Shown: piece after piece, positions 14,368-57,616 of the stretch
How positions within the stretch are numbered: the stretch's first letter is position 1
How the letters are laid out: each line of letters begins with the position of its first letter
Origin: a virus
Strand: one strand, 5' to 3'
IMG/VR virus record: IMGVR_UViG_3300036791_000703
Location: 1-64,000 of that record
DNA length: 64,000 bases
Translations under genes and position numbers: made by a program
Notes under the pieces: generated by a model
The model's input: only the letters and a program-made list of their open reading frames with translations
What the model was told of the DNA's origin: nothing
The model's database searches: none

Positions 14368-16260
14368 GTGAGATATCAGGTCCTCGACCCCAACTTCAGC
14401 AAGGGTAACCTCGGCGGGAATCTGATCACGGTCATCGACGGCATCCCCACCGTCACCATGACGGAAAAGCAGGCGTCGTATTGGCTCACCCAGGGCGCGG
14501 TGTTGCCGCTCGGCGCTGCCGGTCAACTCGATTATCAGCTGGCCGGTCCCAATCTCGTGGTCGCCGCGCTCGGCATCGACGTGCCGAACTTCCACCGGAT
14601 GATAAACTTCCCGACGGCCGCTCCGGACCTGTCGGTTGCTTCGCCCGATATCGGAACGCCGCTCTGTCTTCAGGTGATCCGTGCGCTCGGTGTCGACTGC
14701 GCTCCACTGGCGATCGATACGCTCGCCCTGCATCAGGTCTGCCAGCTTGGCGGCGTGGGGATGGAGGTCACGTCACCGGACTTCACGAAGCCGCCGCTGT
14801 GCGGCATGTACTACAAGGTCACCGCGATCGGGATGGCCACGGCATCGCCCGCGATCGGTGCCCCGGCGGTTCGTCAGTTCGCGCTGTGCGTCGCGACGCC
14901 GTTGACGGTGGGATCGCCGGATGTCGGCGTCACCACGGCGCCGACCCTGACTGCGACGGCATGGGCGCCGCCGCAGCTCGCCGGTGCCTCGGCAGCGCTG
15001 TTCGCTGATTTCGCCGGCAACAACTTTGTGGTCAATAACTCGCTATACAACACCTTGGCCAGTTGGCTCACGGCGCTCGGTGGAGCGTATTCCCGCGCCG
15101 GGGTGGCGAGCTACCTCGCCGGTGGCATCTTCAACACGGCTCCGGCCAACACGCCGCGCTATCCGACCGATCTCGCCGGCATTCCACTCGGGCTGCGGCT
15201 GACCGGGCCGGTGACCAACCTGATGCCGCATTCGGAATACGACAGCACGGCGCCATTCTCGGCTAGCGGCGCGACGTTGACGCCGAATGCCGCTGCAGCC
15301 CCCAATGCCGCCGCCACGATGACGGCAGCGTCTTTCATTCCGACGGCTGTCAATACCACGCATAACGTCGCCTTCTCCGCCGGGATCGGGACGCAGACTT
15401 CTGGCAACATCTACACCTATGCGATTGCAGTCCAGCCAATTGGGCCGAACTATTATTATGCTTATATCGATCCAAGAAATGCATATACCGAATATACCGT
15501 CTTCAGCTTCGCCGGTGGCGTTGCCACGGTTTCTCTGAACGTCGGTGGTGCCGTCGGTTTCGTTATTCCGCTCGCCAATGGCTGGTTCATCTGCGGCACA
15601 ACGATCACCAATCCGATCACCGGCAATCGCACCGGTTCGTGGAACGTGTGTACTGCCACCGGCGGACGCACGGTTCTTTGCGATGGCGTGTCCGGTTGGA
15701 ACCTGTGGGGACAGAACTACACCCAGACCAACTTCCTCGCCGATTACGTGCCAACTGCGACTGCCACCGCGACCCAGGCCGGCGATCTCCTGTACTGGCC
15801 GACCTCGCCGTGGCTGGCAGCGAGCGGCACCTGGGCGCACAGCGGTTCGGCGGCGCTGGCGTTGGTGACGCAATACGTGATGGGCACCGACGACAACACC
15901 GGCAACTTCGTCGCTGGCGCCTCGATGCTCGGCCGGCTCGGCAGCGGCAACAACAGCATCGGCTTCGGCGGGCAGTCGTCGCTCGTCAACTACGCGGCCA
16001 GCACCATCATCAGCAAGTACAAGTACGCTTGCATCTACGATGTGCCGACCACGCTGCAGCGCGTGGTCGATGTCAATGGCGGCAGCAGCGAGAACAACAC
16101 CTTCGATTACACCGGCACCGGGACGGTTCGATTCACCTACGGGAATATGCGGACGCTGAACCCAGTCTCGCCGCTCTACGGCAACGTGAAGACGCTTGCC
16201 TACTGGCCGCAGGCGGCGACGGTGGCTCAAGCCGTTTCAATGTTAGGAACGCTCCAATGA
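14368..16260 (+). CDS. virion-associated protein with VGSPxIGxP motifs and carbohydrate-binding-like C-terminus
   Basis: This 630-aa protein starts at GTG 14368 after GAGGAG. The first 50 residues (RYQVLDPNFSKGNLGG) are paralogous to the start of the 8424 fibre. Four short motifs follow: SVASPDIGTP (~88), EVTSPDFTKP (~132), ATASPAIGAP (~155) and TVGSPDVGVT (~180). Residues 215-630 are strand-rich with jelly-roll-like spacing, similar in feel to phage concanavalin-like or tail-spike head domains. It is probably a surface or tail component. Its stop overlaps the portal start (ATGA), so it is made together with the head genes. Confidence 0.65.
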   Translation: MRYQVLDPNFSKGNLGGNLITVIDGIPTVTMTEKQASYWLTQGAVLPLGAAGQLDYQLAGPNLVVAALGIDVPNFHRMINFPTAAPDLSVASPDIGTPLCLQVIRALGVDCAPLAIDTLALHQVCQLGGVGMEVTSPDFTKPPLCGMYYKVTAIGMATASPAIGAPAVRQFALCVATPLTVGSPDVGVTTAPTLTATAWAPPQLAGASAALFADFAGNNFVVNNSLYNTLASWLTALGGAYSRAGVASYLAGGIFNTAPANTPRYPTDLAGIPLGLRLTGPVTNLMPHSEYDSTAPFSASGATLTPNAAAAPNAAATMTAASFIPTAVNTTHNVAFSAGIGTQTSGNIYTYAIAVQPIGPNYYYAYIDPRNAYTEYTVFSFAGGVATVSLNVGGAVGFVIPLANGWFICGTTITNPITGNRTGSWNVCTATGGRTVLCDGVSGWNLWGQNYTQTNFLADYVPTATATATQAGDLLYWPTSPWLAASGTWAHSGSAALALVTQYVMGTDDNTGNFVAGASMLGRLGSGNNSIGFGGQSSLVNYAASTIISKYKYACIYDVPTTLQRVVDVNGGSSENNTFDYTGTGTVRFTYGNMRTLNPVSPLYGNVKTLAYWPQAATVAQAVSMLGTLQ

Positions 16261-19200
16261 ACGTCGCCGCGCCCAACATTCTGCGCTTCCCGCGGGCGTG
16301 GTTCGATTCCACGCGCGACAGCTTCCAGAACTTCCTCGCCGGCTTCGGTGTGCCCGGTCGCGACAAGGCGGTGTCGCAGTTCTGGGCGTACTATCCACTC
16401 ACCCTCGATCAGCTCGAAGCCGCCTATGCCAGCGACTGGGTGGCGCGCAAGATCGTCGAGATACCGGCGTTCGACGCGACGCGATCCTGGCGGCTGTGGC
16501 AGGCCGACAAGGAGGATCAGAAGAAGATCGAGGAGGCCGAGCGCAAGTACAATCTGCAGCGCAAGCTGCTCGACGCGTTGATCAAGGCGCGGCTCTATGG
16601 CGGCGCTGCGATCATCCTCGGCGTCGATCAGGGCACGTTCCAAGAAGAGCTGCAGATCGACAAGGTCGGCAAGGACGATCTCAAGTTCGTCCATGTGGTG
16701 AGCCGCTATTCGCTCTCCGCCGGCCCGACGGTCAAAGAGATCACCTCGCCGTGGTACGGCCATCCGACCTACTATCAACGCGCCAACACGGTGACGGTGT
16801 CGGCGCCCGGCGGCGTCGAGCCGATCGGCGAGCCCACCATGGGGCAGCTGCCCGGCGACATGCTCTACATCCACCCGAGCCGCGTGATCCGTCTCATCGG
16901 GCTCGACTATCCCGATATCGAGCGGGCGCCGGACGCTTGGGGTCTCACCGTGCTGCAGCCGGTCGCCGATGCGCTCAAGGCCGCCGGGATGGTGACATCG
17001 TCGATGGCGACGATGATCGCCGAGGCCAAGCTCGACATCATCAAGGTGCCGGCGCTGACCGCGAAGATGGGGACCGCCGAGGGCACCCAGAACGTGCTCA
17101 GCCGGTTCATGCAGACCAACGTCGCCAAGTCGAGCATCAACGCGCTGCTGATCGACAAAGAGGAGGAATGGGAGCGCCATCAGCTGCAGCTGTCGAACTA
17201 CGACAAGGTGCTCAGTTCGTACTTCCTCTTGTGCTGTGCCGCCGCCGATGTGCCGGCGACGCGCTTCATGGGCCGCGAGCCCGCAGGTCAGAACGCCACC
17301 GGCGACAGCGACACGCGCAATTACTACGACCGTCTCGCGTCGGATCAGAAGGTGCGCCAGACGCCAGCGCTGCGCCCGCTCGACGAGGTGCTGTTGCGCT
17401 CGACCTTTGGCAGTCGCGACGACGCATGGCGCTACGACTGGAACGCGCTGTGGCTGATGTCGGATGCCGAGAAGGCCGATGTCGAATTGAAGAAGGCACA
17501 GGCGCATCAGGTCGATGTCAACGCTGGTCTCATCTCTCCGCACGTGCTGCAGATTGGCCGCGAGAATTCACTTGTGGAGTCGGGCTTCCTGTATCCGGGC
17601 ATCGAGACTGCTATCGAGGAGGAGGCTGATTGGGACGCCGAGGAAGGCGTACAGCAAGCGCGCACCAAGGGAATGACCGATCCCAACGACCCTGATGCGA
17701 TCGAGCATGCGGCGAAGATGGGCAAGAAATACGGCAACATCGATCCGAACGATCCGAAGACGATCGCCGCCAAGGCCAAGGCGCTGCCGAAACCGCCGCC
17801 CGGTGGCGGCAAACCCAACGGTGGGGGAAAGTCGAATGGTGCCGCGCGCGACGCGCGCAATCCCTTTCGCCGTCTCGCGCGCGACGCGCCGCCGTCGGTA
17901 GTCTTCACTCCCGAGCTGCACCCGCACGATCCCAAGACCGGGCAGTGGGCAACCACGGTCACCGGCGATCCGTTGCAGATGAATCCCGAGGTCGCCACCG
18001 TCGGCGGCGACGAATGGAATCAGAAGACCGGGGCGCGTCTGGAATTCGAGTATGCGCGCGTCAAGCCGGTACTCGACAAGCTCGCCAGTGATCTGGTCGA
18101 GGGCCAAGCTGAAGACACGCCCGATGATCCCGACGAGGACGAGGAGCAGCCCTATACGCCAGAGAGCTGGGATGAGCTGGGCGACTCGCAGCAGGAGGAA
18201 GCCAAAGAGAAATGGATGGAGGCCACCTACAGCGATTACGAGGACAGCGAAATCCAGAGCCAAATCGACAGCGGCTATCTGCTCGAACAGGGCAAGCGCG
18301 AGGCGTTGCAGGATTGGAAGGATGCGCCGACCAAGCATTCGACCACGAGCGGTGAAACGCTCGAATGGCCAGACTGGGCGAGCGAGGCGGTCGACGAGGT
18401 GATGGAAGAGCATGCCGAGGCCGGCAAGCGCATTCGCTTCACCAAGGATCAAATCCTCAAGGCGTTGACGATCGATGCCGGTAAGTACGACGAGTTCGGT
18501 GGCGACGGCAGCAGCGATCCCGATGTCGACTTCGACGACAGCGAGCTGACCGATCCGGCCGGCTACGATCCGAGCGAGGTATTCCCTGGCTTCGAGAAGC
18601 TGGAGCCGTCGAGCTTCCTCAAGGAGGACGAGCGCGACGACATCCGGAAGGCGATCACCGACGCGTTCAACAAAGAGGGCGAGAGCAAAGCCGACAAGCT
18701 CGATGCGTCCGATTACATCGACAAGAGCACCATTCAGGATTACCAGAGCGAAAGTTGGGATCAGTATTCGGACAAGCAGAAGTGGGAATACGCCGAGCAG
18801 TATCTTGAGCTTGGCGAGCAAGAGAGCCATCGCGAAACGCCAGAGCCGACCCAGGTGCTGATGCCGGCGCACTTCGATCCGATGGGCAACCCCAACGTTG
18901 ATGACGATTACAAGAACGATGCCGACTACAAGAACACCAAGTCACTCGGCCGGGCGATGTCGATCGCGCGTGCGGTGCAGGTGAGCAAAGAACGCGACAT
19001 CGACACCGACGAAGAGACCGTCCGCGACATGGACAGCACTCTGTGGCGCGATTGGAAGTCGTCCTCGACATCACCGAATGGCAAGCTGCTGCAGCTCGCC
19101 ATCGCCGACGAGCTTGGTGGTCGCCTGCACGAGGGGCGCATCGGTGATCCGGCGGAGGTCGAGAAGACCAAGCGCGAGGGCAACAAGTGGGGCGGCTACG

Positions 19201-19628
19201 ACGCAGTGAAGGCGTACATCCGCGGCAAGTGGGAGACCACGCAGTTCCTGCTCGACAAGGCCAACATGCAGACCGTCGGGTTGTGGCGTGGCGTTGGCCT
19301 CGATGTCACGAACGAGCGCACCGAGACTGTGACCGCGGGTCCGCACGTGCCGGCATTCAGCAAGCTGCCCGACACCTCGATCCGTCGCAACGGTGCGGCG
19401 TCGTGGACGATCAAGCGCTCGGTCGCCAATAACTGGTCGCGGGTGACGATCCGTGCCCAGGTGCCGCGCACTGCGATCGTCTCGGTGCCGGTCTATGGCC
19501 AGAACGTCCACAACGAGCACGAGGTGATCGTCGCTGGCACGGCGTGGAAAAATTGGGATGCGTGGAATGGTCCGGCGCCATCCTTCGAAGATGTTCCAAT
19601 GGCGTTGCACGCGGGAGCCACGCCATGA
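16257..19628 (+). CDS. portal protein (DUF1073) fused to an ADP-ribosyltransferase-like domain
   Basis: This 1123-aa protein is about twice a usual portal. Residues 1-480 match the DUF1073 portal family (start NILRFPRAWFDSTRDSFQNF, then YGGAAIILG, and RFMGREPAGQNATGDSDTRN), forming the dodecameric DNA gate. A Gly/Pro/Lys linker follows, then a long acidic helical region (560-960). The last 150 residues resemble an R-S-E class ART: Arg1011 in LWRGV, Ser1049 in ASWT, and ExE at Glu1087/Glu1089 in NEHEVIV. Packaged ARTs (such as T4 Alt) modify host proteins on infection. Activity here is inferred. The ATG overlaps the upstream stop. Confidence 0.8.
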   Translation: MNVAAPNILRFPRAWFDSTRDSFQNFLAGFGVPGRDKAVSQFWAYYPLTLDQLEAAYASDWVARKIVEIPAFDATRSWRLWQADKEDQKKIEEAERKYNLQRKLLDALIKARLYGGAAIILGVDQGTFQEELQIDKVGKDDLKFVHVVSRYSLSAGPTVKEITSPWYGHPTYYQRANTVTVSAPGGVEPIGEPTMGQLPGDMLYIHPSRVIRLIGLDYPDIERAPDAWGLTVLQPVADALKAAGMVTSSMATMIAEAKLDIIKVPALTAKMGTAEGTQNVLSRFMQTNVAKSSINALLIDKEEEWERHQLQLSNYDKVLSSYFLLCCAAADVPATRFMGREPAGQNATGDSDTRNYYDRLASDQKVRQTPALRPLDEVLLRSTFGSRDDAWRYDWNALWLMSDAEKADVELKKAQAHQVDVNAGLISPHVLQIGRENSLVESGFLYPGIETAIEEEADWDAEEGVQQARTKGMTDPNDPDAIEHAAKMGKKYGNIDPNDPKTIAAKAKALPKPPPGGGKPNGGGKSNGAARDARNPFRRLARDAPPSVVFTPELHPHDPKTGQWATTVTGDPLQMNPEVATVGGDEWNQKTGARLEFEYARVKPVLDKLASDLVEGQAEDTPDDPDEDEEQPYTPESWDELGDSQQEEAKEKWMEATYSDYEDSEIQSQIDSGYLLEQGKREALQDWKDAPTKHSTTSGETLEWPDWASEAVDEVMEEHAEAGKRIRFTKDQILKALTIDAGKYDEFGGDGSSDPDVDFDDSELTDPAGYDPSEVFPGFEKLEPSSFLKEDERDDIRKAITDAFNKEGESKADKLDASDYIDKSTIQDYQSESWDQYSDKQKWEYAEQYLELGEQESHRETPEPTQVLMPAHFDPMGNPNVDDDYKNDADYKNTKSLGRAMSIARAVQVSKERDIDTDEETVRDMDSTLWRDWKSSSTSPNGKLLQLAIADELGGRLHEGRIGDPAEVEKTKREGNKWGGYDAVKAYIRGKWETTQFLLDKANMQTVGLWRGVGLDVTNERTETVTAGPHVPAFSKLPDTSIRRNGAASWTIKRSVANNWSRVTIRAQVPRTAIVSVPVYGQNVHNEHEVIVAGTAWKNWDAWNGPAPSFEDVPMALHAGATP

Positions 19629-19840
19629 CGCTCAAGATCGACCTGCTCAAGATCGACATGGATGCCGGCAAGCATTGGATCGATCGCGTCACCGCGGAGA
19701 TCAAAGCGGACAAGCTTGAGCTGATCCGGGTGAAGGCGCGGGCCAATTGGCTGCGCAAGCAGGGCCGCGATCCCGGCGCCGCCGGCATCCGTGAGGCCGA
19801 GCTAGAGGCACGGATCAAGGCACTCACGAGCGGCGGGTGA
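19625..19840 (+). CDS. short coiled-coil protein, 71 aa
   Basis: It is coupled to the portal gene by ATGA. Nearly all helix (KIDLLKIDMDAGKHWIDR, then basic and Glu-rich heptads). It may be a portal- or scaffold-associated accessory. No family recognised. Its stop overlaps the GTG of the next micro-gene. Confidence 0.6.
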   Translation: MTLKIDLLKIDMDAGKHWIDRVTAEIKADKLELIRVKARANWLRKQGRDPGAAGIREAELEARIKALTSGG

Positions 19841-19923
19841 ACATCTGGGTCTATCAGCTGGCGCTGCTTGCTGGCGCGCTGCTGATCCTGATGACCATCC
19901 TCGCGATCTTCCTGACGAACTGA
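19837..19923 (+). CDS. 28-residue membrane peptide
   Basis: A GTG start overlaps the preceding stop (GTGA). The product, NIWVYQLALLAGALLILMTI and eight more residues, is one hydrophobic helix. It lies between head genes in a coupled chain, which supports expression. Role unknown. Confidence 0.5.
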   Translation: MNIWVYQLALLAGALLILMTILAIFLTN

Positions 19924-19931
19924 GGTGCGCC

Positions 19932-21820: not shown

Positions 21821-21855
21821 TCACCTGATCCAAACTCTCGCGAAAGGACCTCACC

Positions 21856-25487: not shown

Positions 25488-26456
25488 ATGTCATTGCTGC
25501 GGCCGATCCTGCGTGCCACTGCGGTCGCAGCGCTGCGCGACCGCACCTGGGCCGCCGGCCGTGTCTACGACAGCGATCTCACGCCGCTGGCGACAGCCGT
25601 CTACGGCGGTCCGCCATCGCCGTACATCGTGGTCTACAGCGATCTGGACGATCTCAATCCGGTCGACAACATCGCCAAGGTCTACGCCAGCGACAATCGC
25701 ACGCTCTCCATCGCGATCGAGATCGGCATCGCTTCGGCGATCCGCAGCCCGACCACCAACAACCTGATCATCCAGTTCGCGGCGACCGACTCAGGGATGG
25801 AATTGGCGTGCGATGTGGTGACCGCGCAGGCGATCGGCGCGCTGATCGGCGATCCGCAGTCGCAATGGGGCGAGCTGTTCAAGCGCATGGTCACCAAGGT
25901 GCGCCGCATCCCGTCGCGGCGCGGCGGCATGAGTCAGCAGGGCGTGCGCTTCGCGGCGCGGCGCGTGGTGCTGCAGGTCCAGCCGCTATGGGACTTCATC
26001 CCGGGGCAGCGTCCGCCGGACAAGCATCCGGTGTGGGACTTCATCGCGCTGGCGCGTGCCAACCCTGAAGACAACGTGATCGATATCGCCGGCATCGTCG
26101 AAGGGCTGATCAACATTCAATCGTCATCTAACTGGCGGATCGCGCAGGCGCAGCTCGGGCTTACCCAGGAGGGCATCGAAGCCCTTCAGGTGCCGGGTAC
26201 GCCGCTGCCTGATCCGTTCGTCGAGGATGACGAGATCGACCTGCCGGTGCCGGTTCTGGGCGAGGTCACGGTTGCCGACACCGAGCCCGGCGGCATGGAG
26301 ACCACCATCAGCTCGCTCGACTTCCCGACCGTGTCGGTTGGTTCTCCCGAGATCGATGTGCCGATATTGGGCGTGGTCAGCACGAGCGGGAAGATCACGG
26401 TGGCAGCCTCGCCGGTGCCCGCACCCAAGCCGCATATGCCGCCCAGCCGTTGGTAA
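25488..26456 (+). CDS. tail terminator/completion-like protein with VGSPEIDVP tail
   Basis: The 322-aa protein opens with LRPILRATAVAALRDRTWA, then an alpha-beta core (to ~220) like tail terminators (gpU/Gp11-type folds; AIEIGIASAIRSPTTN). A linker follows, then VSVGSPEIDVPILGVVSTSG (282-301), the same short motif that recurs in the fibre proteins of this window. Function as tail tip or completion protein is inferred from position. Confidence 0.5.
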   Translation: MSLLRPILRATAVAALRDRTWAAGRVYDSDLTPLATAVYGGPPSPYIVVYSDLDDLNPVDNIAKVYASDNRTLSIAIEIGIASAIRSPTTNNLIIQFAATDSGMELACDVVTAQAIGALIGDPQSQWGELFKRMVTKVRRIPSRRGGMSQQGVRFAARRVVLQVQPLWDFIPGQRPPDKHPVWDFIALARANPEDNVIDIAGIVEGLINIQSSSNWRIAQAQLGLTQEGIEALQVPGTPLPDPFVEDDEIDLPVPVLGEVTVADTEPGGMETTISSLDFPTVSVGSPEIDVPILGVVSTSGKITVAASPVPAPKPHMPPSRW

Positions 26457-32800: not shown

Positions 32801-33482
32801 CAACGGCTCGTACGGCGCGGCGCAGATTTACGTGCAGTTTCAGACCTTCGATCCTACCAACAATTTCCAGTGCGACGCGATTGGCGGTTACTCCATGAGC
32901 GTCTACTTCAATGTCGGCGTCGGCATGGGCAAGCGCTCGGTGTCGGAAGGTTCGTGGAGTGGCCAGCTCGGCAGCGACAACGTCCTTCTCAACGGCGTGA
33001 CGACCGGCGCCGCCGGACTTCCGGTGGGGCGGCTGGTCTCCGGCATCGCCGCTTGCGCCTTCACCTATTTCCCCAACAAGACCGCCTGCGCGATCAGCAT
33101 CGCCACGCCTGCCGTGGTCTCCATCGCGAACCACGGTTTCGTGGTCGACGAACCGATCTTCTTCACCGGCACCGCCACGCTGCCGGCGCCGATCGTCGCC
33201 AATCAGGTCTACTACGTGATCAGCGCCGGATTGACGACCGGGGCATTCCAGTTCTCCGCCACCAAGGGCGGCGCCGCGGTTGCCACCACGGCCGCGGGCA
33301 GCGGCACCTACTACGTCGGCGGCTACGGCGTTCCGGCGTCCGGCCTGCCGTCGCCGTATCGCGCGCCGATGTTCGAGATCACGATCATCACCGACTGCGG
33401 CATCTGGCGTAAGACCATGATCGCCAACTTCGATAACGTCGGCACCAACATCGTCTTCAACACTCAGGGTCTGCTGCCTTGA
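29856..33482 (+). CDS. large tail fibre/spike with repeated YYV modules
   Basis: The 1208-aa protein has an N-terminal particle-binding-like domain (RAQLLDNCQFFAQNTGTG, residues 1-100), a beta-helix region (~130-650) with GGxxG turns, and five related modules of the form LPxPLVxxTxYYVxxxxxTxxF, at about 300-376, 663-729, 729-806, 824-902 and 1076-1155. Each has an [AV]xVV...HGL strand first and GSGT at its end. The modules may display glycan- or receptor-binding loops. Homology to known spikes is by layout only. Confidence 0.7.
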   Translation: MGRAQLLDNCQFFAQNTGTGDFSIGAIFPGAQSPAAARAVDTRPYHYSAMAGDQSQWEYGIGRYHVATTTLERFQIVASTSGGNAKVNFTLPPVVAISPLSSDFPQGVNAEYFGFVGDCIVQEGPDFFSSVILNKGTNNAPAWASFNAFAQIESKANRGVLLHFDPGGCYGYDYSLCWQALFGIQKLHINGHGAKFQNIYDQSVQGANFDFEQAWPTASTSFSSWPGGVFHSIKINTTIPGSNTFSLVNPSDMQYFAPPNISANQQVGQRCAMGSMDIMFFGYPPNPYQFEYPRLVGFGLVCTIAAGVVTCANHSLQINSALTFSTNGTLPSNLVPGTTYYVVAGSFTTGSFMLSATVGGAPITDATPGSGTHAITNIITMEQPIRYQHRADFPDYNFGAPYNAGAARVWPFPNDQSCMWDLEHVYQDIKVFLNPNHREPHHYVTFCGRKIVTIDFDGPGPSESVCELVHHIRARFRGAGETDKMVSEIIYEDTIDSPGFVFQSPIDRVSVRGGKLRGGISGMCKQLLVTNADVVGINAGGTYGMALSHVYDNCRIYQPAHPLFVPGPVDGSSAMRVNTKFVTYVRGVIAINKVQLGYGLSHFNAVVGQTVNVAFNNNFNSMTFSGDWGNGVVVGMTEDATYIYYTTTLKFSTLPQWAYGIPIGCTISLASPAVVSSSNHYLSIDDPVILLSAGVLPSPLVAGRQYYVATAGYFSAGFQLAVLPTGASMVVTIPVGSPATIGFPAHGLQPNDPIYFTSTGTLPAPLVANTTYYVIADNLATDTFEVSATPGGAPIATTSAGTGTYYINSRSINTTDAGSLPPAATCQSITQASPAVVNCTAHGLAIGAPFKFSTTGGLPAPISNVTQYYVLAAGYTSGSFQFSRVPGGPAVNTTTAGSGTHTVTGIHAQYSPASTVYFSRANELRLKNCYGSDIARQLSAADAAGQRYFEFRKLDFGGTSVGAVQFPSVGGILRKVELNAINNGSYGAAQIYVQFQTFDPTNNFQCDAIGGYSMSVYFNVGVGMGKRSVSEGSWSGQLGSDNVLLNGVTTGAAGLPVGRLVSGIAACAFTYFPNKTACAISIATPAVVSIANHGFVVDEPIFFTGTATLPAPIVANQVYYVISAGLTTGAFQFSATKGGAAVATTAAGSGTYYVGGYGVPASGLPSPYRAPMFEITIITDCGIWRKTMIANFDNVGTNIVFNTQGLLP

Positions 33483-36004
33483 TCACTGGTCGCGACCGCT
33501 TAGCGGCCGGCCGTCTCGCTGCCCCGACTGGTGGGGGTATTTCGGCATCGTCGTTTGCCGTCGGCTCGCCGGTCTTCACGGCGCCGATCACGGCGCCGCC
33601 GCTCAACAATCTCGCGCCGTCGGCCGACTATTCGTCGATCCTGCCCGGCTCGCCCTATGTGCTGGTCGACGACCTCGGCCACGTCTGGGCGCTCGACGCG
33701 ACAGGGAACGTCTGGCGTGACGGCGTCAGCTGGGCGGCTTCGACGAACAACGCGACGGCGACCCTGATTGAGAAGGTCGGCACCACCGTCTGGGTCAAAG
33801 GATCGTTCTCTGGATATTCGTGGGCTTATTACAACACCGGCGTGTTCGTCTATTCGACGGTGGGGCCGCGACAGCCGCTGCCCGCAGCGAACAGACTTTC
33901 CGTCGGTTCGCTGGAAATCGGAACGCCGTTGGCTGCGTTGCCGAAGCCCGCGACCGGTGTCGACCTCGTCGTCGGTTCGCCGGTCATCGGCATTCCTCAG
34001 GGTCCGTCACGGTCGGGCACGGCGATCTACGCGCCCACCGGCGGCGCGATCGTGGTCGGCGCCAGCATCTGGACATTCGGCCTCAGCCCGCCCGGCGATC
34101 CCAACAACAAGTACGTGCTGCTCAACGGTGCCAATCCCGGGGGCACGCAGCTCGCCGCCTACCTGATCGAGGTCGATACCAGCGGCGTCGTGTGGGCGAA
34201 AGCCTACAATGGTCAGTGGTACTACTGGAGCGGCACCGCAATGGTGCCGTGGCCGGCGCCGCCCAAGCTCGCGATCCCCGCCGCGGTCCCGCTGACGGTA
34301 GGAAGCCCCGCCGTGGGCGTGCCGCTGCCCGCGGTGACGTGGTTCAACGTCTATGGGTTCTCGGTCGGCTCGCCGCAAATCGGCGTCCCGAGCTTCATAG
34401 GCGTCACCACGATGCCGACCCCGATCGGCATCTGGATCGGGCCGTCGTCGATCGGGGTGGCATGGCCGGAAGCCAGCGAGGTCAATCACCTCACGGCGCT
34501 CGATCTCGTGCCCTGGTTCCCCGACATCGGGACCCAGCCGCTGGCGGTGGCACTGGCCGGCAACGAGATCGGCACCACCGATCCGATCATCCGGCCGCTC
34601 GACCAGCATCTCGGCTCGGTGCTGCTCTATCGCTCGGCCTCGGGGCTGGAACGGGCGATGGCCGATGTCGACGGCTTCCGCCTCACCGCGACCTACGCCG
34701 AGATCATCAAGGACCAGTGGGACCCCGACGCGATCAGCAGTCAGAACCTTCCCTTCCTGGCCTACGCCATGGGCGTCAATCTGTGGGAGCCAGATTGGAG
34801 CGACGAGTTTCGCCGCTATTGGGTGAAGAACCAGTGGACGCTCAAGACCATCCGCGGCTCGCTCTACGGCATCACCACCTACGTCGCCGCGGTCGGCGGC
34901 AAGGTGCTCAGCGCGATCGTGCCGCCCGCCAAGTTCTTTCCCGGCCCGAGCTACACCGCAGATCAGCGCGCCGCCTATGTCGCGCGTTTTCCGCAGCTGC
35001 GGCTCTATCCCTACGTGGCGCGGGTCGAACTGGCCTACATCTGCTGTTGCTCGAAATTCATCTCAGGGTTGGAGCCCAACGAGAAACGCACCTTCAACAA
35101 GAACGGCTGCTTCACCGGGCCGTTGTGGAAATTCTATCCGACCGCGCAGGATGCCGGCGGGCGCTACACGCGAACCTCGGTGCTGTACGATCCGGCCACC
35201 GGCATCGAGACGCCGCTGACCTATCGCACCCACACCACGGTGACGCTGTCCGGTGCGACCCAGACCGTCGCCGAGATCACGGTGCCGGCGAAGGCGCCGA
35301 ACACGTGGTTTCTCGGCGATCCCAATCGCTATCCGTTGCCGGCGAAGCATCCGCCGCGCAACACCCAGAACCAACATTCGATCTTCCTCGGCTCCGATCT
35401 GTCGGTCGCCGCGCGCACCATCCAGATCGTGGTGCCGACGACTTCATCGATCGGTTACTCGAAGGCGATCTATCAGACCATCAGCTGGGGCAATGAGAAG
35501 CTGATCGATCTTTACCCTGACACGATCAACCTCGTTCACAGCTATTCGAAGTTCGGTGTCTATAACGGCGCCGCGAAGGGCAAAGTCTATTTGATGGGCG
35601 GCAGCGTCGGGACTTCGTACTTGGTGCGATCGGTGGCGTGGCAATACACCTACATGGTCTGGTACCTGTTCGATCCGTCACGCGTGCCCGACTATCGCAA
35701 GGCCAGCGTCTATATGGGCCATGCTCAATTCGGCCAGCATAAGTACACGGCGAAGATTCGGATCGATGTCGGCGAGGTGTGGCGGCCTTGGTACTTCTCC
35801 GGCACCAGCTTCGTCCGCGGTCACTGGCACCCACCGGACAATCGACGCATCGAGGCGGTACGCCGCGCCGTCACCGCGGCGATGGCCGAACGTGACACCG
35901 TCGGCATCGACACTGCGATCAAGCGCATCATCAGCACCAACGACAGTCTGCCGTGTGACGGGACATTCACCGTTGGTGAGTGGATCGATGCGCGTGTCAT
36001 ATAG
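33479..36004 (+). CDS. tail protein I fused to VGSPxIGxP adhesin-like N-terminus
   Basis: The 841-aa protein starts at a TTG overlapping the upstream stop. Residues 1-310 carry five VGSP-type motifs (~26, 140, 163, 273, 294; e.g. VGSPVIGIP, VGSPAVGVP, VGSPQIGVP) between strand segments. Residues 340-500 match P2 gpI (NLPFLAYAMGVNLWEPDWSD, KNQWTLKTIRGSLYGITTYV), the baseplate component next to J. The rest is strand-rich. The fusion to a repeat-bearing domain is unusual for gpI, which is normally ~180 aa. Confidence 0.7.
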   Translation: MITGRDRLAAGRLAAPTGGGISASSFAVGSPVFTAPITAPPLNNLAPSADYSSILPGSPYVLVDDLGHVWALDATGNVWRDGVSWAASTNNATATLIEKVGTTVWVKGSFSGYSWAYYNTGVFVYSTVGPRQPLPAANRLSVGSLEIGTPLAALPKPATGVDLVVGSPVIGIPQGPSRSGTAIYAPTGGAIVVGASIWTFGLSPPGDPNNKYVLLNGANPGGTQLAAYLIEVDTSGVVWAKAYNGQWYYWSGTAMVPWPAPPKLAIPAAVPLTVGSPAVGVPLPAVTWFNVYGFSVGSPQIGVPSFIGVTTMPTPIGIWIGPSSIGVAWPEASEVNHLTALDLVPWFPDIGTQPLAVALAGNEIGTTDPIIRPLDQHLGSVLLYRSASGLERAMADVDGFRLTATYAEIIKDQWDPDAISSQNLPFLAYAMGVNLWEPDWSDEFRRYWVKNQWTLKTIRGSLYGITTYVAAVGGKVLSAIVPPAKFFPGPSYTADQRAAYVARFPQLRLYPYVARVELAYICCCSKFISGLEPNEKRTFNKNGCFTGPLWKFYPTAQDAGGRYTRTSVLYDPATGIETPLTYRTHTTVTLSGATQTVAEITVPAKAPNTWFLGDPNRYPLPAKHPPRNTQNQHSIFLGSDLSVAARTIQIVVPTTSSIGYSKAIYQTISWGNEKLIDLYPDTINLVHSYSKFGVYNGAAKGKVYLMGGSVGTSYLVRSVAWQYTYMVWYLFDPSRVPDYRKASVYMGHAQFGQHKYTAKIRIDVGEVWRPWYFSGTSFVRGHWHPPDNRRIEAVRRAVTAAMAERDTVGIDTAIKRIISTNDSLPCDGTFTVGEWIDARVI

Positions 36005-43510: not shown

Positions 43511-44035
43511 ATGGCTGAGACGATCCTCACGTTGGATCAGGCCAACATGTTCTGTGGTCGCGAGCCGGGCGACGTGAACAATGGCCTCTACCTCGAATTA
43601 ACCGAGGTCAAGCTGCCGGCGATGAACGAGCAATACATCGATCATCGTGCCGGTGGTACGCCGATCGCGATCGAAATCGACACCATGTTTGCCAAGCTTG
43701 AGTCGACGTTCCAGCTGCTCGGCTGGAACGTCAACACGGCAACCATGATCGGAACGTGGATGGCAGAACAGAATGTTTTTTGGGTTTACGGTTTGGCGCG
43801 AGATCGTATGACCGGGCAGCCATCTCGTGTCACTGCCAAGATGCGCGGCAGGCTTGGCCTCGCCGAGCCGCAGAACTGGAATAGGTCTGGGGCGCATCAT
43901 TGGAATTATGCGATTAAAGGTATTATCGCCTACGATCTGGTCGTCGGTAATACCTCAATATATTCATGGGACTTTTTCGCAAACAAACTTGTCATCGGCC
44001 CGGTGGCGGGAAATTCGCCGCAACAGTTCTTCTGA
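43511..44035 (+). CDS. tail tube protein, copy 1
   Basis: 174 aa. The sequence (MAETILTLDQANMFCGREPG, WAxxNVFWVYGLARDRMTGQ) resembles P2 FII-type tube proteins of ~170 aa. It is about three-quarters identical to the next gene, marking a tandem duplication. The GGGAGACAGCG leader provides a ribosome site. Confidence 0.8.
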   Translation: MAETILTLDQANMFCGREPGDVNNGLYLELTEVKLPAMNEQYIDHRAGGTPIAIEIDTMFAKLESTFQLLGWNVNTATMIGTWMAEQNVFWVYGLARDRMTGQPSRVTAKMRGRLGLAEPQNWNRSGAHHWNYAIKGIIAYDLVVGNTSIYSWDFFANKLVIGPVAGNSPQQFF

Positions 44036-44057
44036 CGAAACGCAACGGAGTAGACAC

Positions 44058-44648
44058 ATGGCTGAGACCATTCTCACGCTTGACCAAGCCAACATGTTCT
44101 GCGGGCGCGAACCCACGGACGTGAATAACGGTCTGTACTTGGAGCTGACCGAATTCAAGCTGCCGGCGATGAACGACCAGTTCGTCGACCACCGCGGCGC
44201 TGGCGTGCCGATCTCGATTGAAGTCGATACCATCTTCGCCAAGCTGGAGTCGACGTTTCAGTTGATCGGCTGGAACGTCCAGACCGCGACGCTGATCGCG
44301 TCGTGGATGGCCGAGCAGAATGTGTTCTGGATTTACGGGCTGGCGCGCGATCGGATGACCGGCGAGTCGTCACGCGTCACCGCGAAGATGCGAGGTAAGC
44401 TCGGTCTTGCCGATCCGCAGAACTGGAACAGGTCGGGTGCCCAGCATTGGAATTACGCGATCAAGGGCATCATCTCCTACGACCTCGTGATCGGAAACAC
44501 CTCGGTGTACAGCTGGGATTTTTTCGCCAACAGATTTGTCGTTGGCACCTGGGATCGCAATTCCGACACCAACGCGATCCTCAACATTCCGATCGCCACC
44601 GCGGCGCCGATCTTGGTCGGTCCGGTCATCGAGCCGGGGACGCCGTAA
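44058..44648 (+). CDS. tail tube protein, copy 2
   Basis: 196 aa. The first ~155 residues follow copy 1 closely, and the C-terminus differs: copy 2 continues TWDRNSDTNAILNIPIATAA...PILVGPVIEP, while copy 1 ends at GNSPQQFF. The strong 5' match makes the two ORFs share DNA and protein. Whether both are built into one tail or alternate is not visible. A good ATG follows GGAG. Confidence 0.8.
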   Translation: MAETILTLDQANMFCGREPTDVNNGLYLELTEFKLPAMNDQFVDHRGAGVPISIEVDTIFAKLESTFQLIGWNVQTATLIASWMAEQNVFWIYGLARDRMTGESSRVTAKMRGKLGLADPQNWNRSGAQHWNYAIKGIISYDLVIGNTSVYSWDFFANRFVVGTWDRNSDTNAILNIPIATAAPILVGPVIEPGTP

Positions 44649-51514: not shown

Positions 51515-51786
51515 TGGCGATCACCGGTTTCGAGCTGTGGCAGGTGGGGAGCGAGTACGTCACCGCCGACCTCATCGTATGGAAGCGGTACAAGAACAAG
51601 GCGATCGGCATCGTCGAGACCATGCTCGATGCCAATCCGCAGCTCGCGTTCTGCCACCGCGTGTCGCCGTTCATTCCGGTCGGCACCTTCGTGCGGGTGC
51701 CGATCGATCCTGATCTTATCGCCGGCAAGCCGCAGGTGAAGAGCCAGGACAGTCTCTGGACCGACAAGCAGGGGTACACCGTCTGA
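51514..51786 (+). CDS. tail protein X (gpX)
   Basis: 90 aa, with the LysM-like fold pattern (TADLIVWKRYKNKAIGIVET, PNPQLAFCHRVSP-like, PVGTFVRVPID) of P2 gpX. The ATG overlaps the gpU stop. It helps join hub and spike. Confidence 0.75.
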   Translation: MAITGFELWQVGSEYVTADLIVWKRYKNKAIGIVETMLDANPQLAFCHRVSPFIPVGTFVRVPIDPDLIAGKPQVKSQDSLWTDKQGYTV

Positions 51787-53045: not shown

Positions 53046-53125
53046 TCCAAAACTTCTTTCGACGCGACCGCCTCGCTTGTGGGGCGACGCCACCCTTTTG
53101 ACCATCGCAACCCAAGGAGACCGAC

Positions 53126-53500
53126 ATGGTCGCATCGCTCGAAAACCAAGTGCTCGACTTCGGCCTGAGCCAACTCTCGACGCTGTCATCCTATCTCTCG
53201 ATCTGCTCCGCCGAGCCGACCACCATCGCGATTGCTGCGACCTCCGGTCTGCTCGGCTACAAGAGCTGGGGCGCCGGTGGTGTGTTCGGCGCGCCCACAG
53301 CTGGCTCGCCCAATGGACGGATGGTGTCATCGAACTCGATCACCGACGGCACCATTACCACGTCGGGTACGGCATCGTGGTGGGCGGTCTATGCTGCGGG
53401 CACGCTGCACGCGCATGGGACGTTGAGTGCGGCGCAAGTTGTAACCGCCGGGAACACCTTCACGCTCACGTCATTCAATATTCGTATACCCAATCAGTGA
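53126..53500 (+). CDS. small tail/virion protein, 124 aa
   Basis: GGAGACC precedes the ATG. The domain (SLENQVLDFGLSQLSTLSSY, then Thr/Gly/Ala strands TISSNSITDG-like) is beta-rich and ends NIRIPNQ. Such proteins often trim the tip or cap fibres. No firm family. The last codons contain CAATCAG, which can pair with the HNH leader downstream. Confidence 0.55.
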   Translation: MVASLENQVLDFGLSQLSTLSSYLSICSAEPTTIAIAATSGLLGYKSWGAGGVFGAPTAGSPNGRMVSSNSITDGTITTSGTASWWAVYAAGTLHAHGTLSAAQVVTAGNTFTLTSFNIRIPNQ

Positions 53501-53512
53501 TCATAAAAAGTA

Positions 53513-53571
53513 GTTGACTTGTTTGTGTTAGTCAACCACTCTGATTGCGTCTCAAGGGAAGGCGCAATCAG
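53513..53571 (+). promoter_or_regulatory. two tandem stem-loops ahead of the HNH endonuclease gene
   Basis: Stem 1 is GTTGACT...AGTCAAC (53513-53519 with 53530-53536, 10-nt loop). Stem 2 is CTGATTGCG...CGCAATCAG (53541-53549 with 53563-53571), whose 13-nt loop contains the ribosome site AAGGGAAGG and which ends immediately before the ATG. The CAATCAG inside the upstream gene's last codons (53491-53497) could pair with CTGATTG instead, giving an alternative structure. TTGACT in stem 1 resembles a -35 box, but no -10 is seen. Confidence 0.6.
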
Positions 53572-54282
53572 ATGTGGGATATCGAAAACAAGCGAGTCAG
53601 CGCAGAGGCTTGGGCATGGTTCAACATGCTAGTCCGTTGCGCGAATGTGGAGCGAGACTGGCATAAACGCGGCATCACGGTCTGCGATCGGTGGCAGGTG
53701 TTTGCCAACTTCCTCGCCGACATGGGCCGTCGCCCAGGACCTGAATTTTCTCTCGACCGGAAAAATAACGACGGCAACTACGAGCCCGGCAACTGTCGTT
53801 GGGCGACCGCGTCTGAGCAAATGAAGAATAGGCGGACTTGGAAAAAGTCTGAAGCAGAAGTTGCCGCATGGATCGCTACCAATCGCGCCCTTGCTTTAGA
53901 GGGCAAGGGTGTCTGGGCGAAGGGTCTCAAGCGTCACTGGTCCCCGGAAGCGAAGGAGCGTTATCGCCAAAAACGATGGGGGCAGAAAGAGCAAGGACTT
54001 GGAATCAGCTCGCCAGCGGCACGAGAGAAATTATCGCAGCGCAAGCGGGCGCCAGTCTCAGATGAGACTAAGCAAAAGATCAGTGCTGCGCAAAAAGGGC
54101 GGAAGCTCAGCGACGCTCACGTTGCAGCACTGCGCGGTGCGTATGATGGCGAAGCCGGTCAAGAGCGTCGCACCAAAATGACAAAGGTGATGACGGGAAG
54201 AAAGGTCTCTGACGAGACGCGCCAAAAACAAAGTGAGGCTGCTAGGGTGCGTTGGGACCGCCACCGATCATCAGGGGAATGA
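53572..54282 (+). CDS. HNH homing endonuclease with NUMOD3-like tail
   Basis: 236 aa. Residues 40-90 are an HNH nuclease (FLADMGRRPGPEFSLDRKNN, YEPGNCRWATASEQ). The C-terminal half has two NUMOD3-like motifs (VSDETKQKISAAQKGRKLSD; GRKVSDETRQKQSEA), typical DNA-binding modules of phage homing endonucleases. It lies between virion genes and its stop overlaps the FkbM gene start (ATGA). The structured leader suggests tight translation control, as known for T4 intron endonucleases. Confidence 0.85.
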   Translation: MWDIENKRVSAEAWAWFNMLVRCANVERDWHKRGITVCDRWQVFANFLADMGRRPGPEFSLDRKNNDGNYEPGNCRWATASEQMKNRRTWKKSEAEVAAWIATNRALALEGKGVWAKGLKRHWSPEAKERYRQKRWGQKEQGLGISSPAAREKLSQRKRAPVSDETKQKISAAQKGRKLSDAHVAALRGAYDGEAGQERRTKMTKVMTGRKVSDETRQKQSEAARVRWDRHRSSGE

Positions 54283-56144
54283 CCATGCTTGAGAAGCCGA
54301 CGCTCACCTCGGACACCTTCGAGTGCCGCCACGGCACCTTCACCATCTTCAACGAGGACGAACTCGTCGGGATGTCGCTCGCGGTGTACGGCGAATATTC
54401 CGAGGGCGAGGTCGTCGTCTTCGAAAAGTGCCTTCGCGAAGGTCACGTCGCGATCGATGTCGGCGCCAACATCGGCGCCTTCACTGTGCCGATGGCGAAG
54501 CTGGTTGGCGACACCGGGGCGGTGATCGCATTCGAGGCGTCGGTGCAGAACGTCTCGCTGCTGGAAAAGAACATCAAGCAGAATGACCTCATCAACGTCA
54601 TAGTAATTCCGGCTGCCGCGAGCGACACCACCGGCACGGTGAAGGTCTCCAAGCAGGATGCGCTGCATGCCTACACCCGGCCCGACATCAACGTCGGTGA
54701 GCTGGAAGTGCCGTGCCAGACCATCGACAGCCTGGAGCTGGGCAAGTGCAACTTCATCAAGATCGATGTCGATCGCCACGAGCTGCAGGTGCTCAAGGGC
54801 GCCGAGCAGACGATCGCGAAATTCAAGCCGATCATCTATGTCGAGAACGAGGATCAGGGAAACAGCGAGGCGCTGATCGCGTGGCTGGTCGAGCACGGCT
54901 ATCGGCTGTACTGGCACCGGCCGTCGCACTTCAACCTGAAGAACTTTCGTGGTGTGCCGCCGGAGCGCAATCTGTTTGGCGTGCTGATCTCGATCATGAT
55001 GCTGTGCGTCCCCGACAACGACTGGAAGTGGGAGATCAACGGGCTCGACGAGGTCGCCGACATCCGCCAGGACGACGACATGTTCAACCGCGAGATCGCG
55101 CGCTACCAGCGGATCACCGCGAAGTTTCCCGACGATCTGATGTCGCGGCTGCTCACCGCGCACTACCTTAACCTGATGCAGCGCTCGGACGAGGCGATGG
55201 CGCTGATCAACGAGAACCTTGCCGCCGATCCAGCGCACAAGGCGTCGCTCAACATCAAAGCGCTGCTCGATCTGCAGGCCGGCCGCTGGCATGACGGCTG
55301 GAAGGGCTACGAGCTGCGCTACGGCCACGCCAACAAGCACATGTTCGGTGGCGCGCGCGAGCACACCGCTCCACGCTGGGACGGCAAGCCGACCGAGGAG
55401 CCGCTGCTAATCTGGTCCGAGCAGGGCTTCGGTGACCAGATCATGTTCGCGCGGTTCTACGAGGACGTGATCACTCTCGCCCCTAACGCGGTCTTCGAGG
55501 TGCAGCCCGAGCTGTTCGAATTGTTCGAGACCTCGTTTCCGCATCTCGAAATCTATCGGGTGCGCCGGACGCTGCCGTATTACGCGCTGCAGCTGCCGTT
55601 GCCGTCGGTGCCGGTGGTACTCGACGCCGATGCGGCGATGATCATGGAGAGCGGTGATTCGTATCTCAAGGTCAATCCCATGATCACCGCAAACTGGCGC
55701 GGCCACGGCAATCATCCGTTCGCCCACGGCCGTGATCCGCTCAACGGTGCCCGCATCGGACTGTGCTGCGTCGGGTCGCTGACCAGCGAGCGGCCCTACA
55801 CCCGCGATATCCCGAGCGAGCTGATCGCGCCGTTAGTCAAGCAGCATGGACCGTTCTTCTCGCTCGAACATTCCGGGCAGTTCGAGAGCTTCGCCACCAC
55901 TGCCGGTGCGATCATGGCGCTCGATCTCGTCATCACCGTCGATACCTCGATCGCGCATCTCGCGGGTGCGCTCGGCAAGCCGGTGTGGCTGTTGCTGTCC
56001 TACGATCCGGACTGGCGCTGGGGGCTGACCGGTGAGACCAGCATCTGGTATCCCTCGATGCGCATTTTCCGCCAGCCCAAATTCCGCGACTGGAAATCGG
56101 TGATCGCGAACGTCAGCGCCGCCCTTGAGGAACGCTACGCGTGA
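54279..56144 (+). CDS. FkbM-type methyltransferase fused to TPR and GT9-like domains
   Basis: 621 aa; the ATG overlaps the HNH stop. Residues 40-240 are an FkbM SAM methyltransferase (motif I DVGANIGAF, Asp60-Phe68; KIDVDRHELQVLKGAE with Asp163). Residues ~270-330 form a TPR-like helical hairpin region. Residues 365-610 resemble a GT9/heptosyltransferase-like domain of TPR proteins (EQGFGDQIMFARF at 381; TVDTSIAHLAGALGKPVWLL, Asp555; YDPDWRWG). It would modify sugars, perhaps virion glycans or host envelope. Activity is inferred. Confidence 0.75.
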   Translation: MTMLEKPTLTSDTFECRHGTFTIFNEDELVGMSLAVYGEYSEGEVVVFEKCLREGHVAIDVGANIGAFTVPMAKLVGDTGAVIAFEASVQNVSLLEKNIKQNDLINVIVIPAAASDTTGTVKVSKQDALHAYTRPDINVGELEVPCQTIDSLELGKCNFIKIDVDRHELQVLKGAEQTIAKFKPIIYVENEDQGNSEALIAWLVEHGYRLYWHRPSHFNLKNFRGVPPERNLFGVLISIMMLCVPDNDWKWEINGLDEVADIRQDDDMFNREIARYQRITAKFPDDLMSRLLTAHYLNLMQRSDEAMALINENLAADPAHKASLNIKALLDLQAGRWHDGWKGYELRYGHANKHMFGGAREHTAPRWDGKPTEEPLLIWSEQGFGDQIMFARFYEDVITLAPNAVFEVQPELFELFETSFPHLEIYRVRRTLPYYALQLPLPSVPVVLDADAAMIMESGDSYLKVNPMITANWRGHGNHPFAHGRDPLNGARIGLCCVGSLTSERPYTRDIPSELIAPLVKQHGPFFSLEHSGQFESFATTAGAIMALDLVITVDTSIAHLAGALGKPVWLLLSYDPDWRWGLTGETSIWYPSMRIFRQPKFRDWKSVIANVSAALEERYA

Positions 56145-57433
56145 CCGCTCACATTTACGATCTCGGGTCCTCGCAGACGATGCAGGGACCCGCGGTTTCT
56201 TTGCCGGTCGTCAATCCCATTGCCGCCAACAGCACGATCGTCGTCGTCGTTGCGGTGGCAAGTCCGTATCAGGTCAGCGGCGGATACACCGTCACCGATA
56301 ATTCCGGCAACAACTACAAGGCAGCCGCGGCATTCTTCCGCTTCGGCCAAACCGAAGCGATCATCGGGTGGCTTGGATTTTTCTATTGCCAGAACGCAAG
56401 GCGGGTCGCAGGCGGCACCAACATCACCTTCAACGCCAACGTACAGCAGCCAGCGTCGACGGCGATCGCTGCATTCTGGGCGACCGGTCTCACCACCCTG
56501 GTCGATCCGTTGGCGACGATCCGGACCGCCAACGGTGCCGCCGGCAGACCGACCATCACCTCGACCCTGTCGATGACATCCGGCGATTTGATGGCTGGTG
56601 TATGCGCGGTGTGCACATGGCCAGCCAACACGACCTACCACGAGGACACCACCGCGAAGTGGGCGTCGCCGCCATTCCAGAAGATCGCGACCGCCGATGC
56701 GCAGGTCGGGATCGCGGGCGCGACCGTCATCAATCCGAACGGCACCGCTGGCGTGACGTGGTCGCCCAACGTGACGGCGAATAGCTTCTGGATCGCGATC
56801 CTTGCCGGCTTCAAGGTCTCGTTCACAGCTGACATGTATGCCGACGACCTCATCGTTGGCTCGCCCCAGATCGACATGCCGGCGCGGTTCTCGATCTTCG
56901 GCAAGATGGTGCCGCGTCCGCTGATCGTGCAACCACCGTTCATCGGCATCCCGTCGACTGTCGTCGCCTCGCCGCAGGTGGTGTGTCTGACCCATCGCGA
57001 CGACGGCGTTATGGAGTCACTGTTCACCAACGTAAACGTCGACTTTTCGCTGGAGGGAACGCCGGGGACGCTGGTCGGGCGTACCAGCGTCGGCCGTGGT
57101 CAGGTCGAGGCGATCAATGTTCAGGAGCCGCTCTATCTCACCGACGGTGTGCTGTCGCTCGATACCGGCAGCCTCACCGGCGATCTTGAGACCAGAGTCG
57201 CCAATCTGGAAGCTGCGGTCGGGCCGCTGGTTCTTCAGATGGGCGGCGTTCAGCAGGCACTCGACAACATCAACGACCAGCTCACCTCGATCAACCAAGC
57301 GATAGCCGCGTTGCAGGCGCAGGTCGGCGGCGGCGACAACGTCTACATGTCGCCCCTCTACATGTACTCGTTTGGATCGCCGGAGATGGGTCAGCCTTCG
57401 ATCACCGTTAGGGTCCCGAACATAGCGCGCTAA
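56141..57433 (+). CDS. virion protein with VGSPxIGxP motifs, 430 aa
   Basis: The GTG start overlaps the FkbM stop. Residues 1-225 are a strand-rich domain (GYTVTDNSGNNYKAAAAFFR) that resembles phage adhesins. Motifs VGSPQIDMP (~237), PPFIGIP (~265) and FGSPEMGQP (~409) belong to the recurring family. A coiled coil (DLETRVANLEAAVGPLVLQM and later) lies near 350-395. Likely a tail or fibre component. Confidence 0.6.
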   Translation: MTAHIYDLGSSQTMQGPAVSLPVVNPIAANSTIVVVVAVASPYQVSGGYTVTDNSGNNYKAAAAFFRFGQTEAIIGWLGFFYCQNARRVAGGTNITFNANVQQPASTAIAAFWATGLTTLVDPLATIRTANGAAGRPTITSTLSMTSGDLMAGVCAVCTWPANTTYHEDTTAKWASPPFQKIATADAQVGIAGATVINPNGTAGVTWSPNVTANSFWIAILAGFKVSFTADMYADDLIVGSPQIDMPARFSIFGKMVPRPLIVQPPFIGIPSTVVASPQVVCLTHRDDGVMESLFTNVNVDFSLEGTPGTLVGRTSVGRGQVEAINVQEPLYLTDGVLSLDTGSLTGDLETRVANLEAAVGPLVLQMGGVQQALDNINDQLTSINQAIAALQAQVGGGDNVYMSPLYMYSFGSPEMGQPSITVRVPNIAR

Positions 57434-57445
57434 AGGATCAGCCCA

Positions 57446-57616
57446 TTGATCGACATGCCGCCTGCACTCGACATCAACGTCGGCTCGCCAGTGCTAGCGA
57501 TGCCGACAGTGGCACAGTTCGCGTGGGTGATCCTGTCGAGTCCGATTTCCGGCCAGATCGTGGCGACGCCACCGATCACCGCGGCCGTCGACATCGAACG
57601 AATTCCAATTTCCTGA
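57446..57616 (+). CDS. 56-residue VGSP-motif peptide
   Basis: Short ORF from a TTG (or ATG 57455) after GGA. It carries NVGSPVLAMP and then a strand segment (FAWVILSSPISGQIVATP). It looks like a small stand-alone copy of the motif-bearing domain, possibly a duplicate or decayed piece. The start is uncertain. Confidence 0.45.
   Translation: MIDMPPALDINVGSPVLAMPTVAQFAWVILSSPISGQIVATPPITAAVDIERIPIS

Follow-up and report, generated by a model that had tools for sequence, protein, structure and literature searches.

The window analysed here comprises 64,000 of the 66,020 bases of the viral record IMGVR_UViG_3300036791_000703. It encodes a portal protein (within 16281-19628), a gp25-like baseplate wedge protein, a baseplate J protein and a P2-type tail protein I, a set of genes that points to a phage with a contractile tail; when the tail-I protein was compared by tblastn with a phage collection, the best-ranked match belonged to a Bradyrhizobium phage (39.6% over 12% of the query). 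A first-pass annotation had noticed that a short motif, VGSPxIGxP, recurs in five virion genes of this window. The recurrence stands, but the motif is the conserved core of a longer element, a 23-residue protein repeat with the approximate consensus LTAxxLTVGSPVIGxPxLxQxHx. Eleven units of this repeat, all in frame, were found in the window: four in the protein encoded from position 14332 (genes are named here by their first base), one in 25488, four in 33479, one in 56141 and one in a short open reading frame (ORF), 57446. The repeat is embedded both in a head-spike-fibre homolog and in a baseplate-type tail protein and, in some phages, including phages of alphaproteobacteria, it is present as long arrays or scattered single units in head-fibre and tail proteins. 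The existence of this repeat family is well supported.

The units were located with a profile of 23 columns, built from 111 units of nine proteins at eight other loci, window units being excluded from the training to avoid circularity. The profile was run on 40 hand-picked coding sequences of the window, with 200 residue shuffles as background. The weakest of the 11 window scores had an expectation of 0.075 per shuffled window, and a six-frame scan (segments of at least 50 codons, scores of at least 6.5 bits) returned the identical 11 units and nothing further. Copies are present, in the coding frame, in all five genes named in the first-pass annotation, and 11 observed units against 0.075 expected at the weakest score also answer its concern that random expectation might give a similar number of hits. 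That a proteome rich in Gly, Pro and Ser would yield such matches by composition alone is, in our view, practically negligible. Regular expressions do give just 1 to 7 matches: the pattern originally suggested for the motif hits a single site when taken literally, five when read as [AV]GSPx[IVFM][GD]xP and seven as VGSPx[IVLMF]xxP (six frames, segments of at least 50 codons), the sites of all three patterns lying on the + strand inside the named genes, with 14332 matched by none of the three. Against a compositional origin, the profile that finds 11 units was derived from other contigs, and 79 phage loci without arrays (fewer than three units each; 673 kb), all chosen for the core pattern, contained 13 profile matches, nine with GSPxIG, which is also part of the selecting pattern, and four without it. 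When L019, a homolog of 33479 (C-terminal half), was removed from the profile, the 11 units were kept and a twelfth, VGSLEIGTP at 33878, was added; the three weakest of the twelve were then marginal (expectation 0.14 to 0.23).

The first carrier, 14332 (14332..16260, + strand), is a head spike fibre protein of 642 amino acids (aa) in which four units at aa 94-207 are followed by a head-spike-fibre domain of the gene transfer agent (GTA) type at aa ~254-487. The protein matched NF048003 with 45.9 bits (E 8.6e-12, aa 292-483), above the cut-off of 36 that defines the family domain, and the PDB chain 6tb9_F3 (Rcc01080) with an E value of 1.7e-19 over aa 254-487. Its units, on the same strand, are PTAAPDLSVASPDIGTPLCLQVI (14611..14679, profile 12.2 bits, expected 0.010 per window), QLGGVGMEVTSPDFTKPPLCGMY (14743..14811, 11.0 bits, expected 0.025), KVTAIGMATASPAIGAPAVRQFA (14815..14883, 25.7 bits, expected 0.000) and LCVATPLTVGSPDVGVTTAPTLT (14884..14952, 15.3 bits, expected 0.000). 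All four are identical in L106, the sole relative found, which is 92% identical overall. The homology to Rcc01080 of RcGTA is confined to aa 254-487 and leaves the repeat region of 14332 uncovered, save for one non-significant piece. Rcc01080 is described, in the accessible parts of the reports, as a flexible capsid fibre that aids capsule binding (PMC7296036, PMC10218006), with an N-terminal anchor peptide of alternating Ile/Leu-Gly, IALGLGLGL (PMC7296036). No anchor of this type was seen at the N-terminus of 14332, which begins MLFGSSSRRSSTVRYQV. None of the ORFs just upstream (12670, 13282 and 13951) passed an NCBIfam cut-off. Further upstream, before the portal gene, an ORF of 1065 aa (8424-11621, +) has a collagen-like region (SclB model, E 3.2e-16, far below its cut-off).

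The second carrier with several units, 33479 (33479..36004, +), encodes a tail protein I with a P2 gpI-like domain at aa 386-476, preceded by N-terminal units and inserted modules. It scored 57.4 bits with Pfam Tail_P2_I (gathering score 20.6) and 41.4 with TIGR01634 (30.05), which places it in both families. Five copies of the motif had been reported here; four score with the main profile, namely GISASSFAVGSPVFTAPITAPPL (33536..33604, 29.1 bits), PATGVDLVVGSPVIGIPQGPSRS (33947..34015, 23.3 bits), IPAAVPLTVGSPAVGVPLPAVTW (34274..34342, 22.7 bits) and WFNVYGFSVGSPQIGVPSFIGVT (34340..34408, 19.5 bits), and one further weak unit, LPAANRLSVGSLEIGTPLAALPK (33878..33946), reaches 4.9 bits (expected 0.23) with the profile lacking L019, all on the + strand. 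The copies had also been described as 20-110 residues apart: the spacings observed are 44, 24 and 23 in 14332 and 137, 109 and 22 in 33479, the latter exceeding that range unless the weak unit is counted. The gpI domain is shared with P2 gpI, but the distant relatives L103-L105 lack the long N-terminal extension of units and modules: their gpI protein starts without units, and no unit was detected in their records at E 0.01. In L134 and L160 an array precedes the gpI domain.

The protein 25488 (25488..26456, +) resembles phrog_12983 (E 1.5e-31, aa 1-234) and carries one unit in its C-terminal tail, SLDFPTVSVGSPEIDVPILGVVS (26313..26381, +; 12.8 bits, expected 0.005, which becomes marginal, 0.16, without L019). 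Lack of conservation in homologs had been named as a second way in which the motif could prove spurious. The units of 14332 are kept in its relative, and that at 34340 reads VGSPxIGVP in three of four close relatives of 33479 and VGRPDIGAP in the remaining one. The unit of 25488 is retained as SPEIxAP in five of eight homologs (VGSP in three, VDSP in two), altered to VHPPVIDAP in L110 and not recognisable in L050 and L104. Between 25488 and 33479 lies a fibre-like protein of 1208 aa (29856-33482, +) with several internal repeats of ~75-85 residues by eye and a match to phrog_967, baseplate wedge tail fiber protein connector (E 8e-8).

The last two carriers are adjacent. The gene 56141 (56141..57433, +) encodes a fibre-like protein with an uncharacterised N-terminal domain and sub-threshold coiled-coil matches at aa ~345-396; of the three copies claimed for it one scores, DMYADDLIVGSPQIDMPARFSIF (56831..56899, +; 6.8 bits, expected 0.075, or 0.14 without L019), and weaker ones recur in its ortholog in the sister record G021. 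A search for loci related to 56141 returned no relative; the orthologs in G021 (69% identical over 227 N-terminal aa) and G003 (43% over 430 columns) were obtained by a different route. The neighbouring 57446 (57446..57616, +), for which a TTG start is proposed, contains one unit, MPPALDINVGSPVLAMPTVAQFA (57455..57523, +; 20.7 bits), so the copy reported there exists, although the virion gene assigned to it is a predicted ORF of 56 codons. At this site G021 has a 427-codon ORF followed by an array ORF of 1104 codons, the C-terminal end of which is the counterpart of 57446, whereas the window has the 430-codon counterpart followed by 183 bases; the flanks of the array site are 79% and 89% identical between the two. 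In G003, which resembles the window less closely than G021 does, gene order is unchanged and the ORF at this point is again short, with a single unit (29.6% over 54 aa, E 3e-4). The idea that 57446 is the remnant of a collapsed array gene was dropped, as this more distant record also has a short ORF there. For the same reason growth of the array in G021 seems at least as likely as loss in the window, and the short ORF may represent the ancestral state. What is observed is that the copy number of units varies between related genes.

Elsewhere the repeat reaches far greater lengths. A scan of viral contigs with the core as DNA gave 97 loci, 18 of which have at least three units. In other phages the units mostly follow one another in tandem, and 11 proteins have 12 to 39 of them; counted at 8 bits or more, two neighbouring ORFs of G015 contain 25 and 30, and G010 has 39 and 20, G021 26 and G008 15. 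In nine proteins read closely the commonest period is 23, found exactly in 38 of 128 successive spacings, the frequent spacings of 5 and 18 being largely due to a second match within a unit; periods of 20 to 22 were also seen (G010, G025). In Kaistia adipata DSM 17808 a 479-codon ORF is filled by units of a related form, GGAPxVGxPAxGQxHxL, and other genomes of its order have similar genes. Among further loci, arrays were present in one of eight from genome contigs (L115, Kaistia) and in 23 of 25 viral ones (not in L122 or L125). Low-complexity GSP or GTP repeats (L034, L046, L112, L113, L117, L125) were judged to be other repeats. When a profile of 41 units from the Kaistia-type arrays alone was used, a single window unit was found, at 14815, and because of this we assign the window units, as far as their sequences tell, to a VGSP branch of the family.

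Carriers were drawn from the pattern loci and from three partly overlapping genome samples. At E 1e-8 the array profile matched at least five of 297 genomes in the order of Kaistia, Kaistia adipata included, at least one of 385 in the class sample and at least one of 398 in the phylum sample, the genome matched being in both cases Kaistia itself; these counts are lower bounds, since in candidate-rich genomes the best 11 or 15 candidates were scored. The Kaistia array gene sits among tail genes and the same stretch also exists as a viral contig (L127), which is in line with a location in a prophage. Two cultured phages are linked to the arrays: OANV2 (Octadecabacter Antarctic DB virus 2), whose gp11 (L174 7065-8591, MW805364.1) has a repeat of ~22 residues by eye and matches the Kaistia array by tblastn (31.5% over 78%, E 1e-13), and the Roseobacter phage CRP-6, through its gp57 (tblastn, E 6e-6). 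Their hosts are Octadecabacter and a Rhodobacteraceae strain, respectively. The OANV2 protein is annotated 'ribonuclease E', which looks like a mis-annotation, and another CRP-6 protein, the putative tail fibre gp60 (L175 7176-8642, minus strand, MK613348.1), is largely collagen-like, with GATGAKGQKGE repeats. An N-terminal peptide like MFGSSPFGSVPFG occurs in four array proteins (L154 12191; L162 2490, L164 2043 and L175 5020, these three on the minus strand) and could possibly serve as an anchor; the search pattern was written from these four proteins. An N-terminal domain common to 56141, the G002 tail protein, L050, OANV2 gp11, L131, L163 and L040 appeared plausible by eye only, and hhalign and BLASTP supported the pairs 56141/G021 and G002/L050 alone.

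Such differences in array length between relatives, and the case of L120, where a DNA identity of 0.83 between adjacent units suggests that the array recently grew in tandem, are what would be expected if the motif were mobile or copied DNA, spread by recent duplication or recombination between genes. For the window this explanation is contradicted by the units themselves and we consider it very improbable as a general one: their DNA identity is 0.45 overall and 0.39 at third positions, and the core is written with three glycine, four serine (TCG in 8 of 11 units) and three proline codons. Given this low third-position identity and the varied Gly and Pro codons, selection on the protein, and not recent DNA copying, appears to keep the window units alike, and DNA-level copying in the window was rejected through this codon comparison.

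Over the repeat region no match was found in Pfam or NCBIfam at their cut-offs, in PHROGs (E 0.001) or in PDB sequences. None of the library matches that passed falls on the units (Beta_helix in G010, aa 364-545; gpI in L160), nor does a C-terminal PHROG match of the Kaistia array protein (aa 439-477). Seven array proteins gave no Pfam match to an immunoglobulin (Ig)-like domain, and the unit measures 23 residues. A literature search for the letters of the repeat or for a 23-residue phage repeat found no description of it; most subscription journals lay outside this search, so novelty is unproven.

A small gene often accompanies the arrays. The window has a copy of 124 aa (53126..53500, +), recognised with a profile from five array neighbours (E 2.3e-32). 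In the 97-locus scan a gene of this ~125-aa family was present in 8 of 18 array loci and in 1 of 79 others (Fisher p 2.5e-6), a comparison in which the loci are not independent and one of the five neighbours behind the profile (L042) is among the eight; the sole exception among the 79, L091, itself carries two units. In most cases the gene precedes the array and shares its strand; in L022 and L130 it follows the array. It also precedes fibre genes in OANV2, as gp9, and in CRP-6; in OANV2 the gene labelled 'ribonuclease E' stands two genes after it. The window protein weakly matched phrog_240, 'head protein' (E 4.7e-5).

This association bears on the two roles first suggested for the motif, a docking site through which different fibre parts bind the same partner or a linker with a history of repeated insertion. 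That VGSPxIGxP is a shared docking peptide for one common partner, perhaps the 125-aa protein, would agree with the enrichment of that gene near arrays, with its presence in the window and with the retention of a single unit in five of eight homologs of 25488. A structural repeat would better account for the tandem arrays (up to 39 units), the period of about 23 and the conserved positions throughout the unit, and many array loci, many of them fragments, have no 125-aa gene in the available stretch. Docking was our first reading as well, set aside because tandem arrays were found, and we now hold it to be quite unlikely. The linker with insertion history fared better: units lie between or beside globular parts, singly or in arrays of up to 39, and are absent from the three distant gpI homologs, while the docking site gained no direct support, conservation extending along the 23-residue tandem unit. 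Since the conserved 125-aa gene lies close to arrays, partner binding in some form may yet play a part. RcGTA offers a layout, base protein plus fibre, in the part of the source consulted (PMC7296036), to which the order of 125-aa gene and array is comparable. A homology of the 125-aa family to the RcGTA spike base (Rcc01079) was considered and discarded, no PDB match being significant (best row a chain of 9c39, an entry named in the Sf14 paper, E 0.036, given no weight). It is conceivable, if doubtful, that array proteins are anchored via the 125-aa protein and that head fibres, baseplate protein and array proteins share one repeat polymer for multivalent surface binding or spacing.

An HNH endonuclease with a NUMOD3 motif (53545-54282, +), of the homing type by its matches, lies between the 125-aa-family gene and the fibre genes, and an FkbM-type methyltransferase (54252-56144, +), with a weak, below-cut-off GT9-like match at its C-terminus, stands directly upstream of 56141 and overlaps it; the methyltransferase is also found in G003 (72% over 627 columns). 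A second HNH-looking ORF, by eye, is at 58969-59466 (minus strand), and two adjacent near-duplicate genes, both starting MAETILTLDQANMFCGREP, are at 43511-44648 (+).

As to function, the repeat probably serves as stalk or spacer in the virion appendages of certain phages, among them some that infect alphaproteobacteria. We infer this stalk role for a promiscuous, charge-poor repeat because of its fixed period, its arrays, its Gly and Pro positions, its low charge, the binding or docking domains adjacent to it and the tolerance of gain and loss. In each unit, SP and GxP would mark the turns of a short strand-turn-strand element, and successive units, one stacked on the next, would give a long beta stalk, poor in charge, that could hold sugar-binding or other modules off the particle, the dispersed units of 33479 then being interrupted arrays with globular modules in between. 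Charged residues make up 4.5% of 20 array fragments, 7.5% of the window units and 7.8-30.7% of ten whole window proteins. Several observations weigh against the stalk. Taken as a whole, 14332 has as few charged residues (7.8%) as its units, so fibre proteins may generally be low in charge, which makes this property weak evidence for the stalk. The lone units of 25488 and 57446 could not form a stalk. AlphaFold gave low-confidence single-chain models, with a predicted local distance difference test (pLDDT) score of 54.6 for five units, in which short strands recur with the unit, and of 32.1 for 33479, a useless model, and no fold in PDB matched at E 0.001 or better; the Foldseek list was disregarded, its top entry being an ice-binding protein at E 1.3. 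In neither OANV2 gp11 nor CRP-6 gp57 does any unit score with the VGSP profile, and the link of these two proteins to the arrays comes from tblastn. Finally, virion proteomics could be found for none of the carriers, and the main text of the OANV2 paper does not mention mass spectrometry.

A different function would be that of a multivalent, weak glycan-binding repeat, whose units contact capsule or lipopolysaccharide sugars as a ligand common to head and tail fibres. The homology of 14332 to Rcc01080 speaks for it, together with the capsule binding by both the head spike and the tail fibres of RcGTA described in the consulted part of that report (PMC10218006). The units, however, are poor in Trp (0.1%), Tyr (0.8%) and charged residues, and the homology to Rcc01080 is outside them, so that we regard sugar binding by the units as unlikely.

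Comparable features are seen in other viral proteins. In the adenovirus shaft, a short hydrophobic repeat with Gly/Pro turns forms a stalk, the triple beta-spiral, with ~15 residues per repeat vs 23 in the phage repeat, and Ig-like domains are spread over phage head and tail proteins. The Ig-like domains of capsid decoration proteins (T4 Hoc, T5 pb10, Sf14 gp20) vary in copy number, according to the available text (PMC11821841), and are accessory modules as the repeat is here, but they are whole globular domains and not 23-residue units. The tail-associated BACON tandem repeats of crAss-like phages, likewise tandem, differ in sequence and hosts; the accessible account attributes them to duplication in one lineage and largely to horizontal transfer in two (PMC6949934).

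For the capsule-binding head spike and tail fibres of RcGTA, no homology between the two was detected, as stated in the consulted part of the source (PMC10218006); in the window, unlike there, the head fibre and a tail protein of one phage are joined by a shared repeat sequence. If the doubtful anchoring and sharing considered above were true, the 125-aa protein and the array would constitute a novel pair of base and fibre, comparable to the head spike of RcGTA, and capsid and tail of one phage would bear the same multivalent material. One cultured phage has an array-matching protein (by tblastn) that currently goes under the label 'ribonuclease E', and a searchable repeat is now available for phage proteins in which no family-library model covers this region. 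Carriers with 1 to 39 units make up a natural series in which fibre length can be set against adsorption.

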